A DNA stretch of 64,000 bases from Desulfitobacterium dehalogenans ATCC 51507 (GTDB lineage Bacteria > Bacillota > Desulfitobacteriia > Desulfitobacteriales > Desulfitobacteriaceae), in the NCBI RefSeq assembly GCF_000243155.2, contig NC_018017.1:744001-808000 (forward strand), in the 5' to 3' direction. A program made the position numbers and the translations under genes. Position 1 is the stretch's first letter. The number at the start of each line of letters is the position of its first letter. Below are positions 99-10,102 of this stretch, in pieces. The notes beneath the pieces were generated by a model that was not told the origin of the DNA, searched no databases, and was given only the letters and a program-made list of their open reading frames with translations.

Positions 99-1265
99 CT
101 ACTCCTTATCTGGTACGGGAGGATAGTGTGCCCTGCCCGAACGTTCGATGCTGGCATCCACAGTGACTTCTACTATAATCTCTGAAAAAACTTCATCCCA
201 ACGCTCCTTCATATCCTTCCACTCTTTGAGGTGCTCTTTGCGCACAACCTCACCAAAACCGAAAATATCCGCATTGAGTTCTTGAGCCTTTCTGAATGCC
301 GCCAGAACCTCATCTTGAATGGCTGCGGCCGTATTTCGCTCAAGAGCTTCGACTTTTTCTTTTGTTCTAAAACTTTCTGCACAATATTGAGCAGCAAGTG
401 CACCTTTTTCACGAATATAAACCCTCATAACCACCCGGTTATCCCGTATCTCTGCGCTGACTTTAGTCTTAGAATCAATAAGTTCTATGCTGACTTTACC
501 ATCACCCTCTGGACACTCCACATCGATAATGCCACTCTTTACTTCATCCTTTACCCATAAAAGTCCACGGGTTTCATATTTATTTAGCTCTCCAACGAGC
601 TTATCGTCTTTAAAAATTGCCGTTCCTTTGACCTGAAGTGATTTCTTATCCCCTTTACCGACAATTTCAACTAGGGGTGCAGTCGGTGCAGTGGTTCGAT
701 CAATCAGAGCGGTTAAAAAGTCATTGAGTTGATTTGTACTGGTCTGAGAGTTTGGGTCTTGTTCATCAAGTAGTTTAGAAATATTGATTGCAGGAATTCT
801 ATCTATTACAGGTTCAATATCTAAAACATCCCTAGCGTTACCTTCAGAGACAACGAGCCAAATGTTTAATCGAGTTTCATGGTCTCGAATAAAAAAGTCA
901 AGTTCCTCCTGAATACCTTCCTTGGCATAGTCTCGCCCGAGAATTAGCACTTGAATATGAGGAAAATAGAGTTTGCGGTTAGATATATGGGTGAAGTCAC
1001 GTAGAATCGAAAAAAGAGTATTTCCAGTATTTTGGATGTTCCAAAATGCTTGGGCATTCGATCTAGCTGGGGATGATTGGAGCTCTTTAGGATTTGCGAC
1101 TTGTGCAGTGACAAGGAGTTGATTCGATACTTGTGTCTTATCAATACTTAACCCCATGACAATAGCTAAAGTGTTTAATTCTCGTTGATTCCAACACCCT
1201 GTCATACTCAAAACCAATATTATGCATAATAAGAGAACGAATAGAGAGTACTTTCGGCTTTTCAT
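99..1265 (-). CDS. gerC: Ger(x)C family spore germination lipoprotein
   Basis: 388 aa lipoprotein subunit of a GerA-type nutrient germinant receptor, anchored on the outside of the spore inner membrane. The N-terminus is a lipoprotein signal peptide ending in the lipobox MTGC, followed directly by the WNQREL motif typical of GerC proteins. The length is usual for the family. The gene follows gerA after 33 bases, and its end carries the ribosome site for the next gene. The germinant cannot be deduced from the sequence. Confidence 0.9.
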   Translation of the reverse strand: MKSRKYSLFVLLLCIILVLSMTGCWNQRELNTLAIVMGLSIDKTQVSNQLLVTAQVANPKELQSSPARSNAQAFWNIQNTGNTLFSILRDFTHISNRKLYFPHIQVLILGRDYAKEGIQEELDFFIRDHETRLNIWLVVSEGNARDVLDIEPVIDRIPAINISKLLDEQDPNSQTSTNQLNDFLTALIDRTTAPTAPLVEIVGKGDKKSLQVKGTAIFKDDKLVGELNKYETRGLLWVKDEVKSGIIDVECPEGDGKVSIELIDSKTKVSAEIRDNRVVMRVYIREKGALAAQYCAESFRTKEKVEALERNTAAAIQDEVLAAFRKAQELNADIFGFGEVVRKEHLKEWKDMKERWDEVFSEIIVEVTVDASIERSGRAHYPPVPDKE

Positions 1266-1298
1266 AGATATTTTACTCCATCGATTATTGCCTTTAAC

Positions 1299-2918
1299 CT
1301 ATTGATCTGGATCGTCTTGCCGCTTTTCGTCCTTTGAAGGAGGTGTCGGCTTCAATCTAAAAGCTTGTCTCTGGGGATCATTCCATCCAATCAAACGCGG
1401 ACGGGTAACCATAGTCCATAAAGGAAATCGAATAATAGTGTCCTTCAAATCTAAAGGAGTGAGTGGGGCAATGGGTGAAAAAAAGGGAGTACCAAAAGAT
1501 CTCAGTGATGCAAGATGGACTACGATTCCAATAAATCCTATCATGATTCCAAAAATACCCATGGTTCCTGCGAGAAGAACCATGATTAACCGCAATATGG
1601 CTCCTGAGTCTGTTTGAGCAGGGACTACAAAGCTGGCAACGGCTGTTAAAGATATGACGATAACCATAGGCTGGCTGACAAATCCGGCTTGGACAGCGGA
1701 TTCGCCGAGAACCAAAGCCCCCACGATACTGACTGCTTGACCAACAGGGCGGGGCAGCCGTATCCCGGCTTCTCTAAGGATCTCGAAGACCGCTCCCATG
1801 GATAAGGCTTCGATAACGGCAGGAAAGGGCACATCCTCCTCAGAGGCAGCCATGGTAAACAGTAATGGAGTAGGAATTAATTCTTGATGAAAGGTGCTCA
1901 AGGCGACAAAAATTGCCGGTCCTAAGATAGAAATAAAATAAGATAGAAAACGGGTCATTCGCACGATACCCGCAAAGTAGGGGCGGGAATAATAATCTTC
2001 AGTACTCGCGAAAGTCTCTATGAAGAGCAGGGGAACAGTTAACACGAAAGGAGTCCCATTAATTAAAAGAGCTGCACGCCCTTCTAGGATTTTTGCTGCG
2101 ACAGCATCGGGTCTCTCGTTGTTTCCTACTGTAGAAAAGATCGAAAAAGGAGCATCTTCAATAAATTGTTCGATATAACCTGACTCAAGAATGGCATCAG
2201 TATCAATTCGATCGAGTCTACGTTTGATCTCATCGATGAGTTGGGGATTTGCTATTCCTTTGATGTAGGCTATGCAGACGGCTGTTTTGGTTTCTCGGCC
2301 TATTATTGTGGTATCAAAGGTAAGATCTGAATTTCTAATATAGCGTCTTAAAAGGGATATATTCGTAAGTAAATTTTCCGTAAACCCTAAACGAGGGCCT
2401 CGAACAACGGTTTCAGTTTTAGGCTCCTCAAGGCTTCGGGTCTCACCACCATCTGTCCCAATGAGTAAAGCTTCATTTAAGCCGGAGATGAGCAAACCGA
2501 TATAGCCTGTCAGGCATCTCTCGATGATTTCATTAATTGTGGCAGCTGTATAGACTTCATCAACCGAAAGCATTGTCGTCTTAATACTGTTGATATTAAA
2601 GGTTTTTCTTTCCTCTTTTTCGATGAATCGGGTATCAAACATCAGAGGTTTCATTATGCTTTCGTTCAAGAATGTTTTGTCGATCATACTCGTTAGGAAG
2701 ACAAGTGCGCCTTTAAAATTTCCCTGAGGACCGAAATCAAATTCGCGTATTGTTAAGTCATAACTTGACCCGAAAATAGTTTTGATGTCCTCAAGATTCT
2801 TATGGAGATCTTGTGAGAGATTGGAGGTGGAATACTCACAGATCTTCTTTTGCTCTTTATAAGTATTTAAATGCGTCAACTTCATAACTTGGAGCTGCTT
2901 TTTAATATATTGAAACAC
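1299..2918 (-). CDS. gerA: GerA family spore germination protein
   Basis: 539 aa A subunit of a germinant receptor. It has a soluble N-terminal domain (about residues 1-290), then a membrane domain with several hydrophobic segments (about 300-470) and a charged C-terminal tail (PSKDEKRQDDPDQ), as in GerAA, GerKA and GerBA. The start is a GTG at 2918 with a weak AGG site; an ATG 11 codons further in lacks a good ribosome site. First gene of the operon, transcribed divergently from the signal peptidase gene at 3077. In relatives these operons are expressed in the forespore; I could not pick out a sigma-G promoter with confidence. Confidence 0.92.
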   Translation of the reverse strand: MFQYIKKQLQVMKLTHLNTYKEQKKICEYSTSNLSQDLHKNLEDIKTIFGSSYDLTIREFDFGPQGNFKGALVFLTSMIDKTFLNESIMKPLMFDTRFIEKEERKTFNINSIKTTMLSVDEVYTAATINEIIERCLTGYIGLLISGLNEALLIGTDGGETRSLEEPKTETVVRGPRLGFTENLLTNISLLRRYIRNSDLTFDTTIIGRETKTAVCIAYIKGIANPQLIDEIKRRLDRIDTDAILESGYIEQFIEDAPFSIFSTVGNNERPDAVAAKILEGRAALLINGTPFVLTVPLLFIETFASTEDYYSRPYFAGIVRMTRFLSYFISILGPAIFVALSTFHQELIPTPLLFTMAASEEDVPFPAVIEALSMGAVFEILREAGIRLPRPVGQAVSIVGALVLGESAVQAGFVSQPMVIVISLTAVASFVVPAQTDSGAILRLIMVLLAGTMGIFGIMIGFIGIVVHLASLRSFGTPFFSPIAPLTPLDLKDTIIRFPLWTMVTRPRLIGWNDPQRQAFRLKPTPPSKDEKRQDDPDQ

Positions 2919-3076: not shown

Positions 3077-3619
3077 ATGTCCTCCACAAAACACACAACT
3101 CGGCAGCAAATAGAAGACATGCGCAAAGAGATTCAGGCTAAAAAACTAAAGAAGTCTGATCTACATAACAACAAGAATCTTAAAGTGGACAGACTGGGAG
3201 GTAGAAATGATCTTCTAAAAGCTTTAAGTAGAATGCTTTTTGGCGTTATAGTTGTGACTTTACTTTTTTCCTTAGTGTCTATCAATATGGCTAAGGGTAG
3301 GGGAGAAGTTCCCAGTATTTTTGGCTATTACTTATTTGTGATTGAATCAGGAAGTATGGAGCCTACCTTAAAGGTAGGCACAGTCATTCTTTCTCATGAA
3401 CCTAGAAATCCGGAAAGATTAGAAAAAAATGATATCGTAACATTTCAGACTCTATCCGGTGCCATCATAACCCATCGCATTATTGAAGTGCTCGATGAAG
3501 GAGCGGGAAGTATAGGTTATCTGACCAAAGGAGATAATCCCATCAACGTGATCGACCAGGAGGTACTTACCCCTGAGCGGGTGATTGGAGTATTTATAGC
3601 ACGACTACCTTTATCTTAA
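3077..3619 (+). CDS. sipW: SipW-type (ER-type, S26B) signal peptidase I
   Basis: 180 aa membrane protease that should remove signal peptides outside the membrane. A charged N-terminal tail (about 1-50) precedes one membrane helix (about 52-72). The catalytic Ser93 lies in ESGSMEP, His133 in THRII replaces the Lys of ordinary bacterial enzymes, and the conserved Asp153 is in KGDN. The Ser-His-Asp set defines the archaeal/ER/SipW branch. An AAAGGA ribosome site precedes the ATG. In Bacillus, SipW processes TasA and TapA, but no TasA or camelysin gene is visible here. The next two genes include a protein with a second, altered copy of this domain. Confidence 0.9.
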   Translation: MSSTKHTTRQQIEDMRKEIQAKKLKKSDLHNNKNLKVDRLGGRNDLLKALSRMLFGVIVVTLLFSLVSINMAKGRGEVPSIFGYYLFVIESGSMEPTLKVGTVILSHEPRNPERLEKNDIVTFQTLSGAIITHRIIEVLDEGAGSIGYLTKGDNPINVIDQEVLTPERVIGVFIARLPLS

Positions 3620-3689
3620 AGATTAATAACATTGAATGCTGGAGATACAGAATTTATATAAGGGCTATAAAACTGGAGGATAAAAGCCT

Positions 3690-4667
3690 ATGGAGAGTTT
3701 GACTGTGTCTCAAAAGGTCGTACTGATGGAAAACCTCTCATCGGCTGAGTATTTATTACGAGAGGGAGAAAGCCTTCAGCAAGTATTGAAGGATATTAAT
3801 CTTCAAATCAATAGGGCTGAGATATGGGGGATCATAGGGACATCCTGTTTCGAAATCAAGCTTTTGTTGGAGATCATGGCCAATATTCGACCCTACGAAA
3901 GTGGACGCTGTGTCTTAGTAGAACGGGGCATGATGAGGCTAAAACGAGTGATATTAAAGCATGTGTTTTATATTGGTAACTCAGACATGCTCTATAACAC
4001 TATGAATGTACTAGAATTTCTCATGCTCGCCACTGCTAAATGGAAGATAAATGCTGTGGAGAGACAGGAGCAGATTTTTGAGTTGATCATCAAAATTGGC
4101 TTGGGTCATCTTTCTCTTACGACCATAGGCCTGCTTACAAAAGAGGAGAAGGCGGTAGTCACTTTAGTTGCGGCAGCTTACTCAGATGCCCAGATGATTG
4201 TCTTTAATCTTCCTGAATATGAGTTTGACTCAATCCTTATAGAGGTTATCGCCAATATGGCTGACTTCATTAAAGAACTTGGGAAAACACTTGTTGTAGC
4301 TACCCCTATCTGTCCATTGATTGAAAAGGCTTGTACACATATAGCTGTATTGGCAGAGGGGCGTTTAATCCATCAAGGTCTTGTTCAGGATTTTCGTGAT
4401 CAGTATGACAAGGTGGAAATGATTCTTAGGGATGAGGACCTTGCAGGTGTAAAGGAAGCCCTTCGGGCAATTCTTCCCAATCATCAGCTGGTTGTAGAAC
4501 ATGACCGTTTATTAATTAAGGGAGAAACTTCTTTGCGCAGTGACCTGGAGGTGATTTATAAAAGGATTATTGACTCGGGATATTTTCCTCAGTCCATAGA
4601 GAAGAACAGCAAAACAGTAGAATATGCCTTGGAGGAGCTTATGAGGCAGTATGATTTACCGGAATAG
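3690..4667 (+). CDS. ABC-transporter ATPase-like protein lacking catalytic motifs
   Basis: 325 aa protein that follows the order of an ABC ATPase (INLQI strand, P-loop region, helical region, AVLAEGRLIHQG strand, C-terminal extension), but each nucleotide-handling motif is replaced. The Walker A region reads GTSCFEIK with Ile57 where Lys is expected. The signature LSGGQ is LLTKE (about 148-152). Walker B/catalytic Glu (LDEP) is FNLP (172-175). The switch His is Pro206. It is therefore probably a pseudo-ATPase. The reading frame is intact over its whole length and the ribosome site is good (TGGAGG), so it does not look like a decaying gene. Its 3' end overlaps the start of the membrane protein downstream, which suggests a partnership. 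No function is known to me. Confidence 0.75.
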   Translation: MESLTVSQKVVLMENLSSAEYLLREGESLQQVLKDINLQINRAEIWGIIGTSCFEIKLLLEIMANIRPYESGRCVLVERGMMRLKRVILKHVFYIGNSDMLYNTMNVLEFLMLATAKWKINAVERQEQIFELIIKIGLGHLSLTTIGLLTKEEKAVVTLVAAAYSDAQMIVFNLPEYEFDSILIEVIANMADFIKELGKTLVVATPICPLIEKACTHIAVLAEGRLIHQGLVQDFRDQYDKVEMILRDEDLAGVKEALRAILPNHQLVVEHDRLLIKGETSLRSDLEVIYKRIIDSGYFPQSIEKNSKTVEYALEELMRQYDLPE

Positions 4668-6042
4668 CTTTTTAAAGAAGGAGCTTCGTCAAGCTTATAC
4701 AGAAAATAAGATCAGCACCAACCGGAAAATTTCTTTTGCGCTTTTTCTGGGGCTGATTTCTTTCGCCCTTTATTTTGCCTTTCAGACCTTACAGGAAAGC
4801 GTCCTCTCAGATGCAGTCCCTGAGATCATGCAGCCCAGCTACTTTTCCACCCTATATATCTATATTCATCTTGCCTATTTTTTGTCTGCTGGGTATTACA
4901 TCATCTACTATGATACCCTTTTCTTTTCAGAAATCAGAAAGAATTCATGGTATTTGATGATCCATATGGGCTATACCCCGGCAGGGATGTTTTTTTCTAA
5001 GCTTTTGGCTTTGGGGTATACCTCCTTGTTTGTCTACACTTTGGGATTTGTAGCCATACTATTGTTTACAAGTCTCTTGAAGTTTCCCCTCATTATTGCC
5101 TATCTCCCATCACTTTTCCTGGTAGGGTTAATAGACTTAGTGCTGCTCACTATACTATCCATGGTTTTTTCCCTCTATGTCAGAACCATCATCAATGCTC
5201 GGTACGGGATTGGGATATCGGCTTTTCTTATTCTCCTGCTGAAAATAGTCCTGGGACACTATGATGTCATAAGCAATAGGGTAGCTATGCAGAATATCTT
5301 CAATCTCTTTGACATGAGTCTTTCTCTCTATCTTCCTTTTTGGGTCATTGTCGTCATCATCTGTGGGCTGGTTTGCCTTTTTCGAGCAGATAGTCTTGCT
5401 CGATATTATAATTTGTCTGAGGACTTGAGTCTTCTGCCACCGGATGCTTCGGTGATCCTCATGGACTCTAAGACAGGGAAGAAAGAGCTTATTGCCGTCG
5501 GTGGGAAGCAGGTCATGGAGCGCAAGCTCATCCATAAAGTGGTCACGGTATTGGTGACTGCTTTTATTGGCGTTGCCCTAGCTATTAACGTGTTCATTAT
5601 TGTTATCAATGCCTCTACTACAGGTCAGGAAGTAAGTATCCGAGGGGTTATCCCCTTTATTTTCCAGTCCAACACTATGGAGCCGGAGATTATGGTAAAT
5701 GATTTAACTTATTTTCAAAAGCTCGATCCTCAATACCCTTTGAAGATAGGACAGATCATCTTGTTTAAAGAAAATAATGTATTTTATATAGAAAGGGTTG
5801 TAGCAATCCAGGGAAATAACCTTGTGGTGGATATCGATAATTACCCACCCATGTCTCAGGTCGGAGCTATGAAAAAGACCGTGCCACGGGAGAATATCCA
5901 TGGCGTCTATAGCGGAGGGAATCGCTGGCTGGGAGCGTTGATTCTTTTTGCCAACACGATTATGGGGAGGATACTATTCTTATTAATACCGGCAATCTTG
6001 CTGTTCTACCATGAGCAGATTGTTAAACTATTAAAAGGATAG
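4651..6042 (+). CDS. Polytopic membrane protein fused to an altered SipW-like domain
   Basis: 463 aa. The N-terminal half has about six hydrophobic segments (roughly 29-47, 66-86, 118-142, 148-178, 188-202, 228-244) and resembles an ABC-2 type permease. A cytoplasmic linker follows, then a helix (about 296-320) and a region aligning with SipW enzymes. The catalytic Ser of SGSMEP is Thr342 (SNTMEP), the catalytic His is Glu381 (IERVV against THRII), and only the Asp-Asn pair is kept (396-397). A C-terminal helix (about 438-455) ends the protein. It overlaps the pseudo-ATPase gene by 17 bases. The domain is probably inactive, perhaps substrate-binding or regulatory for the active peptidase at 3077. 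Confidence 0.7.
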   Translation: MIYRNSFLKKELRQAYTENKISTNRKISFALFLGLISFALYFAFQTLQESVLSDAVPEIMQPSYFSTLYIYIHLAYFLSAGYYIIYYDTLFFSEIRKNSWYLMIHMGYTPAGMFFSKLLALGYTSLFVYTLGFVAILLFTSLLKFPLIIAYLPSLFLVGLIDLVLLTILSMVFSLYVRTIINARYGIGISAFLILLLKIVLGHYDVISNRVAMQNIFNLFDMSLSLYLPFWVIVVIICGLVCLFRADSLARYYNLSEDLSLLPPDASVILMDSKTGKKELIAVGGKQVMERKLIHKVVTVLVTAFIGVALAINVFIIVINASTTGQEVSIRGVIPFIFQSNTMEPEIMVNDLTYFQKLDPQYPLKIGQIILFKENNVFYIERVVAIQGNNLVVDIDNYPPMSQVGAMKKTVPRENIHGVYSGGNRWLGALILFANTIMGRILFLLIPAILLFYHEQIVKLLKG

Positions 6043-6317
6043 TGCATGAAGGCTTGTCGCTGCTTTTCTAATTAGTGGGGCGAAGTTATATAGCTCTGAT
6101 ATTTTTTGCAGAATGGAATACCTAAAATCAACTTAATATTTATTAATTGATAATGTGAAAGTTTTAGCGTATAATAAATGTGAAAAAATTGTGAAATTGA
6201 TATGACATATATTGGTTTTTAATGATATAAATGATGATGAGTTGATTAATAATTTAGTCAGCTTACTTTGAGTTTAAAAAACTTTTCATAATTTGTATGA
6301 TCGAAGGGAGATTGAAA
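6043..6317. other. AT-rich intergenic region before the first thioredoxin pair
   Basis: About 275 AT-rich bases with no convincing reading frame. Several copies of TGTGAA occur around 6150-6200, but I see no clean operator. It probably holds the promoter of the thioredoxin/reductase pair; I could not assign -35 and -10 boxes with confidence. Confidence 0.4.
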
Positions 6318-6647
6318 ATGTCGTTAATTCAGTTGGATGGTTGTGGTTTAGAGGAGTTAATTTATGACATTGGGGAAGGGTGCTTAATCTTTTTTTACAA
6401 GAACGACTGCTCTGCTTGTAAGGAAATGATTCCTATGTTGGAAGAATTGCAGCCTAAGTACAAGGGCCAATTTGGTTTCTATTATGTGAACATCGATGAG
6501 AACAAAGAAGTCGTTAACTGCTTTAAATTAGACCAAATTCCTGAGGTGCTTTTTTTCAAAGATGGAGAATACCAAGGTAAGCTCTGTGGCGAATTTAATC
6601 AAGGCCAAGTCGTAGAAAAGATTCAAGATAATCTCATGTGGGTCTGA
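6318..6647 (+). CDS. Thioredoxin family protein (CSAC active site), copy 1
   Basis: 109 aa single-domain thioredoxin with the redox motif CSAC in YKNDCSACKEM and the cis-Pro region as QIPEVLFF. The ATG at 6318 is preferred over one 21 bases upstream because GGGAG lies 7 bases before it. It sits 54 bases before a thioredoxin-reductase-like gene and is presumably reduced by it. It is a paralogue of the protein at 12729; by eye the two share about half of their residues. The Trp of WCGPC thioredoxins is absent, so its redox potential and partners may differ from those of housekeeping thioredoxin. Confidence 0.85.
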   Translation: MSLIQLDGCGLEELIYDIGEGCLIFFYKNDCSACKEMIPMLEELQPKYKGQFGFYYVNIDENKEVVNCFKLDQIPEVLFFKDGEYQGKLCGEFNQGQVVEKIQDNLMWV

Positions 6648-6701: not shown

Positions 6702-7922
6702 ATGAGTAACTCATACGACTTAATTATCATTGGAGGAGGTCCGGCTGGGCTTGCAGCAGGAATTTATGGAGGAAGAGCGAAACTTAGGACCTTGATCATT
6801 AATAAGGGAACCGTTGGCGGAATGGTGGATACCACTCGTGAAATTGTGAATTATCCTGGTTATATCCATACCAGTGGTCCAGATCTTATGAGTGATTTCA
6901 AAAAACATGCCGAAAGTTTTGGGGTGGAGTTTTTAAAAGATGAAGTGGTGAGCACTGATTTTTCCCAGGATCTTAAAAAAGTAACTACGAAAAAGAAGAA
7001 AGAATTTTATGGAAAGGCAGTAGTCATCGCTACAGGAACTCAACCAAGGCTTCTCAATATTCCCGGTGAAAAAGAATTGAGGGGCAGCGGTGTCGCTTAT
7101 TGTGCTACCTGTGATGCGGAATTCTTCCAGGACGAAGACGTGGTTGTAGTAGGCAGCGGTGACCAGGCCATTGAAGAAGGCATGTTCATTACCAAATTTG
7201 CTCGTAAGGTTACGGTCATTGTCCTTCATGATGAAGGAGTTTTGGATTGCAATAAAGTCAGTGCTGAAAAAGCGTTCCAAAATGAAAAGATGGAATTTGT
7301 CTGGAATTCCACTTTGGAAGCCGTCTTAGGTGAGGACAATGTGGAAGGGGTCAAGGTTAAAAATCTAAAGACGGGGGGCTCTTCAGTACTTCCATGTCAA
7401 GGGGTGTTCTTCTTTGTAGGTATGATCCCTGCTACTGAATTCCTCAAAGAGAGTGGAATTAAGATGGATCGCCGATGTTATATTCCCGTTAACGACTTAA
7501 TGGAGACGAACCTCCCCGGCGTCTATGCAGTGGGAGACAATCGAGTTAAATACCTCAGGCAGGTGGTCTCAGCGGCAGGTGATGGTGCTACAGCTGCTGT
7601 GGCTGCTGAGCGATATATCGAAGAACTGGAGGCATTCCAAAAGAACATCCTCCATAGCGAGAAAAAAGTCTTGTTGGCTTTTTTCAATGCTGCCAATACA
7701 GCGAGCTTGGAGTTCACTGCCCTGATGGAAGAGCTGATTCAGGAATATGGTGATTCGTACAAATTGGTCAAAGTGGATATGGCAACAAAGAAAAATCTTG
7801 CTGAAAAATACGGTGTAGCGAATGCTCCTGCCGTTGTGGTACTGGACAAAGGCGAAAAGGTCAAGGAACTGGAGTGCAGCATAGATAAAGAAGTGTTAGC
7901 GGAACAATTAGGTAAAGAATAA
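6702..7922 (+). CDS. Thioredoxin reductase-like flavoprotein with C-terminal thioredoxin-like domain, copy 1
   Basis: 406 aa. Residues 1 to about 305 form a low-molecular-weight thioredoxin reductase: FAD motif GGGPAG, redox pair CATC, NAD(P)H-site region GSGDQAIEEG and the second FAD motif GVYAVGD. Residues about 318-406 resemble a thioredoxin fold (KVLLAFFN, then VDMATKK and APAVVVL) but carry no CxxC, so that domain is not a dithiol exchanger. A standalone thioredoxin with a CxxC is encoded just upstream, and the two probably form one electron-transfer unit. By eye the sequence is about 90% identical to the protein at 13083. Confidence 0.87.
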   Translation: MSNSYDLIIIGGGPAGLAAGIYGGRAKLRTLIINKGTVGGMVDTTREIVNYPGYIHTSGPDLMSDFKKHAESFGVEFLKDEVVSTDFSQDLKKVTTKKKKEFYGKAVVIATGTQPRLLNIPGEKELRGSGVAYCATCDAEFFQDEDVVVVGSGDQAIEEGMFITKFARKVTVIVLHDEGVLDCNKVSAEKAFQNEKMEFVWNSTLEAVLGEDNVEGVKVKNLKTGGSSVLPCQGVFFFVGMIPATEFLKESGIKMDRRCYIPVNDLMETNLPGVYAVGDNRVKYLRQVVSAAGDGATAAVAAERYIEELEAFQKNILHSEKKVLLAFFNAANTASLEFTALMEELIQEYGDSYKLVKVDMATKKNLAEKYGVANAPAVVVLDKGEKVKELECSIDKEVLAEQLGKE

Positions 7923-8851: not shown

Positions 8852-10102
8852 TTAGGGTTGATAGAGATCATCCAGCCTTTTCCCGCTGGTTTTCATTTCG
8901 GCGGGAACTGTGGGGATGGGGATACCTCTTAAAAGCATGTTCCAATAAATTGCTTTAAAAGCCAGTTTTCCCAGGTGATTGATTTTCGTCTCTTTGAGAA
9001 GGGAGAAGGGCCCAATTCCAGGTAGAGGGAAGGTACCTTCAACGGGTTCAAGTTCATAATTGAAATCGATTAAGAAGGCTTTGTCGTAGCCTGACTCGAT
9101 GAAGCAGTTAGCATGACCATCAAAATGGGCGGTTAAGGGTTTGTTAGCAATATAGCTCAAGATATTCTCAGTTAAGATCTCCGCTTGGAAATGAGCGACA
9201 GAGCCGGCCTTAGAAGCAGGAAGATCGGAAGCATCCCCAATGACAAAGATGTTTTCGTACTTCTTAGTTTGCAGGGTATGCATATGGGTGGGAACAAAAT
9301 TCAATTCATCACCTAGGCCGGAGCGGTCAATCAAAGAACTACCCATATTTACAGGTACGGTAACGAGAAGATCATAATTCACTTCCTTACCATCCACTGA
9401 AATGAGTTTCTTGTTTTTGGCATCCACATGAGGAATGCTGAAGTTATTAATCAATTGAATCTTTTTCTGGGGAAATAAATGTCCAAGGACGTCTGCACAT
9501 TTTGGCTTTGTAAAGGCACTATCTAGAGGAGTAACATAGAGGAGTTCTACTTTGTCACGAATTTTACGCTTTTCCGCAAAGAACCAGTCCGAGAGAAAAG
9601 CAAACTCCAAAGGTGCAACAGGGCATTTAATCGGCATTTCACTAATGTGAACAACCAATCTTCCCCCAGGCCAATCTTTTAACTTATCCCTAAGTGCCTG
9701 TGCACCTTCAAAGGTATAGAAATCAAAGATGTCTTTTCGCCAGCCATCCATGACACCGTCCACTTCTTCGGGGACTATTTCACAACCTGTGGCGATAACC
9801 AGTAAGTCATAGGGAAGGACCCAGCCATTAGATAGCAATACCTGATTTTTTTCTGCCTCGATTAATTCGATTGGAGATTTGATATATTCCACGCCCTTGG
9901 GAATAAAGTCTCTCGTTCTTTTTATCACATCCTTTTCTGAATAAAGATCAAAGGGGATAAAAAGAAAGCCTGGCTGATAATAGTGTTTTTCATATTGGTC
10001 CACTATAGTGATAGCCCAATTCTTTTTATCCAACTTTCGTTGAAGGTGATTGGCCATCATTGTACCGGCTGTACCAGCCCCTAGAATGAGTACTCTTTTC
10101 AT
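8852..10102 (-). CDS. Sulfide:quinone oxidoreductase-like flavoprotein
   Basis: 416 aa FAD protein with the N-terminal dinucleotide fold GAGTAGTMMANHL, a conserved Cys in IKCPVAP (about 160), an FAD-binding FVIGDAS segment (about 300) and a further Cys in HANCFIESG (about 340). These Cys positions match those that handle persulfide in the SQR family. The expected reaction is oxidation of sulfide to sulfane sulfur with transfer of electrons to quinone. Type and acceptor cannot be fixed from sequence alone. It follows the CsoR-type regulator by 19 bases and precedes the TusE- and DsrE-like genes, which could receive its sulfane sulfur. Confidence 0.82.
   Translation of the reverse strand: MKRVLILGAGTAGTMMANHLQRKLDKKNWAITIVDQYEKHYYQPGFLFIPFDLYSEKDVIKRTRDFIPKGVEYIKSPIELIEAEKNQVLLSNGWVLPYDLLVIATGCEIVPEEVDGVMDGWRKDIFDFYTFEGAQALRDKLKDWPGGRLVVHISEMPIKCPVAPLEFAFLSDWFFAEKRKIRDKVELLYVTPLDSAFTKPKCADVLGHLFPQKKIQLINNFSIPHVDAKNKKLISVDGKEVNYDLLVTVPVNMGSSLIDRSGLGDELNFVPTHMHTLQTKKYENIFVIGDASDLPASKAGSVAHFQAEILTENILSYIANKPLTAHFDGHANCFIESGYDKAFLIDFNYELEPVEGTFPLPGIGPFSLLKETKINHLGKLAFKAIYWNMLLRGIPIPTVPAEMKTSGKRLDDLYQP

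Follow-up and report, generated by a model that had tools for sequence, protein, structure and literature searches.

SipW-TasA fibre operons, a dead signal peptidase that takes part in pilus assembly and assembly chaperones such as CapP are already known, and it is on the start, cell attachment and ordering of TasA-type fibres in single-membrane bacteria that the locus described here bears. It belongs to Desulfitobacterium dehalogenans ATCC 51507, where three genes, sip, abc and mem, stand near the beginning of the 64,000-nucleotide stretch that was analysed (the window; bases 744001-808000 of the 4,321,753-base single-contig genome) and three more, S1, S2 and S3, stand to its left. Sip is a SipW-type signal peptidase, abc resembles an ATP-binding cassette (ABC) ATPase, and mem resembles an ABC-2-type permease fused to an S26 signal peptidase; the catalytic residues of the ATPase and of the fused peptidase have been replaced. 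Among described systems, the tapA-sipW-tasA operon of Bacillus subtilis likewise sets a SipW-type peptidase beside TasA-like subunits with an aromatic residue at P2', the second residue past the cleavage point, and its TapA has an N-terminal initiator peptide of the kind that S3 resembles (PMC9674648, PMC10151520). In TasA the P2' residue is Phe, which with its neighbours makes the protein a poor substrate for LepB, yet it is processed by SipW (PMC10269814). The first strand is donated by the TapA N-terminus, which is similar to the N-terminus of TasA (PMC10151520; PMC9674648), and a TapA trimmed to mature residues 44-57 still allows proper biofilm formation (PMC10151520). Unlike the locus here, however, the B. 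subtilis operon has neither an ABC protein nor a permease-S26 protein, its TapA has an Ig domain where S3 has none, and its products lack the CBM2 domain carried by S1.

The sipW-bsaABCRSD locus of Clostridium perfringens, also an anaerobic Firmicute, encodes a SipW-dependent secreted protein that forms extracellular polymers, with a two-component system in place of abc and mem (PMC7395162). The CapP/TasA/CalY system of Bacillus cereus offers a parallel in its dedicated assembly factor for TasA/CalY filaments, although CapP is a cell-wall or extracellular chaperone-like protein, unlike the membrane ABC-like pair considered here (PMC13082335). SipA of Streptococcus pyogenes is a signal peptidase homologue without catalytic residues that keeps its peptide-binding cleft and is essential for pilus polymerisation (PMC4049620). 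Like SipA, mem has an S26 fold devoid of catalytic residues and is encoded beside likely surface-fibre subunits, and by this analogy SipA would be its closest functional precedent; SipA is, however, P-type and free-standing and serves sortase-built pili, whereas mem is of the endoplasmic reticulum (ER)/SipW type and fused to an ABC-2-like domain. The ABC-2-type exporters NosFY and PmtCD are similar in their ATPase fold (NosF) and membrane helices (PmtD, NosY), but they have active ATPases and no S26 domain. Finally, SAUSA300_0351-0353 of Staphylococcus aureus is an ABC-type complex functionally tied to signal-peptide handling; unlike abc, its ATPase is needed, K44A abolishing function (PMC5013292), and the likeness drawn here is a functional one.

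We interpret the six genes as one set, in which the trio is very probably the processing and assembly half of a surface TasA-like fibre locus, with abc and mem as a scaffold; for this account as a whole, fibre locus and scaffold together, we estimate a probability of roughly 0.55. The features of the trio, in window coordinates, are:

3077..3619, plus strand: sip, a SipW-type (ER/archaeal-type) signal peptidase of 180 amino acids (TIGR02228 and NF046067 matches; invariant catalytic residues)
3690..4667, plus strand: abc, a pseudo-ABC-ATPase of 325 amino acids, predicted to have a NosF/ABCA-like fold and a C-terminal domain (GldA model, AlphaFold2 (AF2) model, motif table)
3837..3863, plus strand: pseudo-Walker A of abc, residues 50-58 (GTSCFEIKL), with I/V/L at the Lys position in 27 of 27 rows; aligned to 1vpl
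4206..4208, plus strand: Asn173 of abc, which takes the place of the Walker B Asp and is N in 27 of 27 rows
4651..6042, plus strand: mem, a membrane protein of 463 amino acids with an ABC-2-like six-helix part and a SipW-like dead S26 part (conservation, fold matches)
4708..5397, plus strand: ABC-2-permease-like helices of mem, about residues 20-249 (AF2 helices, Foldseek)
5503..6015, plus strand: SipW-like part of mem, about residues 285-455, comprising a helix, the dead S26 domain and a helix (NF046067 E 9e-10; fold match to SipA, 4n31)
5674..5676, plus strand: Thr342 codon of mem, at the position of the nucleophile Ser, T in 26 of the 27 rows and S in the other
5791..5793, plus strand: Glu381 codon of mem, at the position of the catalytic His, E in 27 of 27 rows

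The three adjacent open reading frames (ORFs) reported in an initial annotation of the window are present where it had placed them, all on the plus strand and with a 17-base overlap between abc and mem; a scan for promoters and terminators gave a signal near chance level. Sip matches NF046067 at E 5e-26 and TIGR02228 at E 7e-19 (above cutoff), and its proposed triad of Ser93, His133 and Asp153 proved identical in 26 of 26 aligned rows. An ER-type signal peptidase with Ser, His and Asp, as expected of a SipW-dependent TasA-type fibre locus, is therefore present.

Abc matches a GldA-type ABC ATPase model at E 1e-16, and PF00005 only under that family's cutoff. Its AF2 model (predicted local distance difference test score, pLDDT, 77) matches NosF, ABCA3, ABCA4 and TM_1403, C-terminal domain included, with Z of about 19-20; judged by this model, abc keeps the nucleotide-binding-domain (ABC-ATPase) fold. 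The motifs of an active ABC transporter (Walker A Lys, Walker B Asp/Glu, signature, switch His) are nonetheless all replaced throughout the 27 aligned rows, which represent 23 distinct genomes after removal of duplicates, four contigs being present twice. The Walker A Lys position is occupied by Ile56, with Lys57 one residue later; the signature reads LTKEE; Asn173 and Leu174 stand at the Walker B Asp and catalytic Glu positions, and Thr205 at that of the switch His (T or S across the rows). A 24th genome, G525, agrees with the replaced residues except for Cys at abc switch position 205. The loss of Walker A Lys, signature, Walker B and switch His, first read from this one sequence, hence extends to every catalytic motif and is fixed in the relatives. 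Were abc the catalytically silent subunit of a heterodimer, paired with an active ATPase encoded at another locus, the resulting transporter might move the precursors or another factor that the fibre needs; the ABC-2-like fold retained in mem would suit such a transporter, and in S. aureus an ABC transporter that needs its Walker A Lys bypasses signal peptidase (PMC5013292). We consider this rather improbable, given that every abc motif is replaced everywhere, switch and signature included, and that the locus in the relatives read holds no partner ATPase, bar an unlinked-looking ABC pair upstream in L018.

Mem has no Pfam match, and a search of PDB sequences with it returned no hit; its residues 301-455 match NF046067 at the E-value given above. 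Foldseek related the six-helix part to chains of PmtCD and NosFY with a probability of 1.00 and weak E-values (above 0.009), the fold matches being to PmtD, NosY and ABCG for the helices and to SipA and SpsB for the S26 part; because confidence in the model is low (pLDDT 65), these assignments are provisional. The likeness to an ABC-2-type permease had no place in the initial annotation, nor had the substrate genes outside the window or the fibre context described below. The S26 part is without the catalytic Ser and His/Lys and retains Asp396 of the triad; the Thr342 and Glu381 that had been noted in place of Ser and His were seen again and are conserved in relatives, the sole Ser at position 342 being that of L015. 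Thr could in principle serve as a nucleophile and, like Glu and Asp, hardly varies, so that the domain might be imagined as a new type of active peptidase that uses Thr342 with Glu381/Asp396. Glu at the His position, however, is a poor general base for a Ser or Thr hydroxyl in known S26 chemistry, and an intact SipW is always found alongside, which leaves such an activity very unlikely. On present evidence, abc and mem cannot act as a normal ABC exporter or peptidase.

The search for relatives covered 83 genomes from the class, a sample of 398 from the phylum and 98 genomes from another class. The order sip-abc-mem is kept in at least 24 Bacillota genomes, with orthologous trios in a second genome of the same genus (G002), many Desulfosporosinus, other families of the order, Anaerobacterium, a metagenome-assembled genome (MAG) binned as Lutispora and several Clostridia/Bacillota MAGs. 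Mem is 86 % identical in G002 and 47-64 % in more distant relatives, a degree of conservation that rules out chance ORFs. Within the class the trio is patchy (17 of 83 genomes), gain and loss being evident, yet the set is intact wherever it is present. The pairwise ratio of nonsynonymous to synonymous substitution rates (dN/dS) is 0.07-0.26 in nearly all comparisons of abc and mem, and the two abc values of 0.44 are one pair appearing twice, with very low dS. Both genes are under purifying selection, and therefore represent an old repurposing and not decay; that the pseudo-enzymes are kept in clean reading frames, as had been suggested, is borne out by dN/dS well below 1 and by the same replacements in 23-24 genomes. 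Relatives with intact motifs at the same locus, which would have meant decay in this strain only, were found in none of the genomes searched: the remaining matches cover the S26 part only, and those inspected are intact peptidases with unrelated N-termini, together with a separate dead enzyme in L105. Taken together, the conservation and dN/dS rule out that the ATPase or the peptidase decayed recently.

One genome, G051, contains a 53-residue stretch matching mem (L062, about 9046-9201, minus strand) and no substrates, S2 included; this is probably a remnant of the locus, which can therefore decay. The view that an ABC exporter and a duplicated signal peptidase have decayed neutrally is nevertheless refuted here by the fixed motifs and dN/dS, the frames being open and the replacements shared by genomes of several classes, and its probability is negligible. 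Since the shapes have been kept while the catalytic residues were lost in every relative examined, both proteins have probably been reused as a membrane scaffold.

The proposed substrates of sip, and the cluster that parts them from the trio, are:

genome 740984-741934, left of the window: S1, putatively TasA-like with a CBM2 domain, 316 amino acids
genome 741956-742078 (L028:5956-6078), outside the window: S3, a 40-codon ORF between S1 and S2
genome 742112-742642, left of the window: S2, putatively TasA-like, 176 amino acids
window 99-2918 (minus strand) and L028:6989-8092: ger, a germination receptor cluster between the substrate genes and the trio

Two or more secreted proteins with near-identical signal peptides are encoded directly upstream of sip in other genera, and in most of those read S1, S3 and S2 are contiguous with the trio. 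Here S1 and S2 lie about 1.4-3 kb left of the window start, and S2 is separated from sip by three spore-germination genes on the opposite strand (GerA, GerAC and spore permease families), an arrangement seen in both Desulfitobacterium genomes with the locus, G002 included; the other loci compared lack these ger genes, and G525 has an S2-like gene downstream and inverted instead. Among the 83 class genomes, the 17 that have full-length mem are precisely those that have S2, an agreement without exception that shared ancestry inflates, and each of the 17 gives two matches to the S2 profile, S1 and S2. Such linkage to proteins with SipW-type signals, together with conservation and purifying selection, fits the processing or presentation complex for a secreted substrate that the initial annotation had envisaged, and supports it in part. 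The co-occurrence also bears on the idea that abc and mem are mainly regulatory, sensing or titrating SipW substrates or restraining SipW and so setting the timing of secretion or gene expression. SipW of B. subtilis reportedly has a second function, in biofilm control (attributed to Terra 2012), and fusions of receiver and S26 domains occur in other Bacillota; abc and mem, however, have no DNA-binding or signalling domain and are always retained together with the substrates, and a regulatory role is accordingly unlikely.

S2 reaches no named family of Pfam or NCBIfam at a meaningful score, PF12389 included, and PF12389 has no match in this genome. A camelysin/TasA profile was assembled from the phylum's PF12389 hits; hhalign aligned S2 to it collinearly over 151 columns (probability 94.6, score 53.7), whereas 60 controls, in which the mature columns were shuffled and the signal peptide was left as it was, scored at most 38.3. 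The mature part alone gave a weak local score of 30.8 (shuffles at most 20.2) in an alignment that is out of register. Because the full-length score beats the controls and the mature part is weak, we regard S1 and S2 as TasA-like with moderate confidence. S1 combines an N-terminal domain paralogous to S2 (hhalign, 100 %) with a CBM2 carbohydrate-binding domain at its C-terminus (PF00553, E 3e-9 in this genome and E 1e-11 in a relative). In S1, S2 and S3 alike, Tyr is invariant at P2' of the likely cleavage point, which was placed by analogy with TasA. That this is a SipW-dependent donor-strand (TasA/TapA-type) fibre locus is, in our judgement, quite likely.

S3 has a strong Shine-Dalgarno sequence and consists of a SipW-type signal peptide and, after it, some 15 residues (NYNSVSSFGISITPH), and is short enough for gene callers to miss easily. 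Every one of the 17 class genomes with the locus has it between S1 and S2, as do Anaerobacterium and two MAGs, with an extra acidic tail in Anaerobacterium and one MAG. Over its last 15 codons, this genome and G002 differ by eight synonymous changes and one amino-acid change; S3 is coding and conserved. Its best family is TapA (TIGR04087), matched weakly by 7 of 13 S3 proteins; the copy in this genome reaches E 6.6e-4 and 19.3 bits over the N-terminal part of the model only, under the curated cutoff of 80 bits for a model that includes the Ig domain, as expected because S3 has no globular domain. S1 and S2 do not match the TapA model. Because a truncated TapA suffices and the TapA N-terminus donates the first strand, S3 looks, from its sequence and position, like a natural version of the minimal TapA initiator, and it opens the donor-strand initiation model to a direct test by means of a synthetic peptide; a TapA 44-62 peptide has already served in such a polymerisation assay, read out by ultracentrifugation and electron microscopy.

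For fibre formation and the roles of S1 to S3 we infer the following sequence of events. All three would be secreted via their SipW-type signal peptides, and sip would cut before the conserved x-Tyr, leaving N-terminal strands free for donor-strand polymerisation as in TasA and TapA. S3 would be the likely initiator, priming with its donor-strand-like peptide of about 15 residues, S2 the likely shaft, and S1 a likely tip or adhesin whose CBM2 domain binds perhaps to cellulose or other glycans. For abc and mem we infer the role and topology of a non-hydrolysing ABC-2-like membrane scaffold: abc, itself static, would hold the ABC-2 fold together, and the outward-facing dead SipW-like domain of mem would bind sip-type signal peptides or cleaved N-termini without cutting, holding them beside SipW and the fibre base and thereby organising or anchoring assembly. 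We see about an even chance that abc and mem are such a scaffold for assembly. It is a tentative step further to propose that a dead ABC-2 exporter and a dead signal peptidase make up a membrane platform for donor-strand fibres, supplied with a natural donor-strand micro-protein; equally speculative is the idea that this platform might be the functional counterpart of the chaperone-usher system in cells without an outer membrane, S3 being little more than the 14-residue TapA tip.

Several points weigh against this account. The fibre is a prediction, none having been seen, and B. subtilis and C. perfringens make such fibres without an ABC/permease partner (PMC9674648; PMC7395162). The mature domain of S2 by itself shows weak TasA similarity, the match of S3 to TapA falls far under the curated cutoff and owes something to the signal peptide, and the structural model of mem is of low confidence. 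S3 is, moreover, absent between S1 and S2 in two relatives, G091 and L015.

The initial annotation had stated that no system of this kind was described, which holds in one respect only: SipW-TasA operons and dead SipA are known, but the pair of pseudo-ABC and permease-S26 proteins was found nowhere described in the open-access literature or the family databases consulted. The same sources yielded no description of a free-standing donor-strand micro-protein like S3, and the open-access literature no paper linking Desulfitobacterium or Desulfosporosinus with a SipW/camelysin system; a search there for a pseudo-ATPase combined with a signal peptidase led to the active S. aureus transporter. In this conserved set the likely initiator has shrunk to a short peptide, and each of the 17 class genomes that have the subunits keeps the two pseudo-enzymes alongside them. 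If abc and mem are indeed a scaffold, they would represent a new use of the ABC-transporter and signal-peptidase folds and, to our knowledge, the first membrane platform for TasA-type fibres.

Other architectures involving the S26 domain were met among the matches. L105, L106 and L112 encode proteins of about 680-730 amino acids in which a response-regulator receiver-like domain is joined by a long acidic linker to a C-terminal SipW-type S26 domain, and long ORFs in L108 and L110 also matched. In L105 the S26 Ser and His positions read Arg and Asn, making it another dead signal peptidase. At L059, L060 and L061 a multi-helix protein of another kind ends in an intact SipW-type peptidase and is encoded beside secreted proteins with SipW-type signals. 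Downstream of the trio in the window are a thioredoxin gene (6297-6647) and then a gene for a thioredoxin-reductase-like protein that carries a thioredoxin-like domain fused at its C-terminus (6702-7922); the thioredoxin gene adjoins mem in G002 too.

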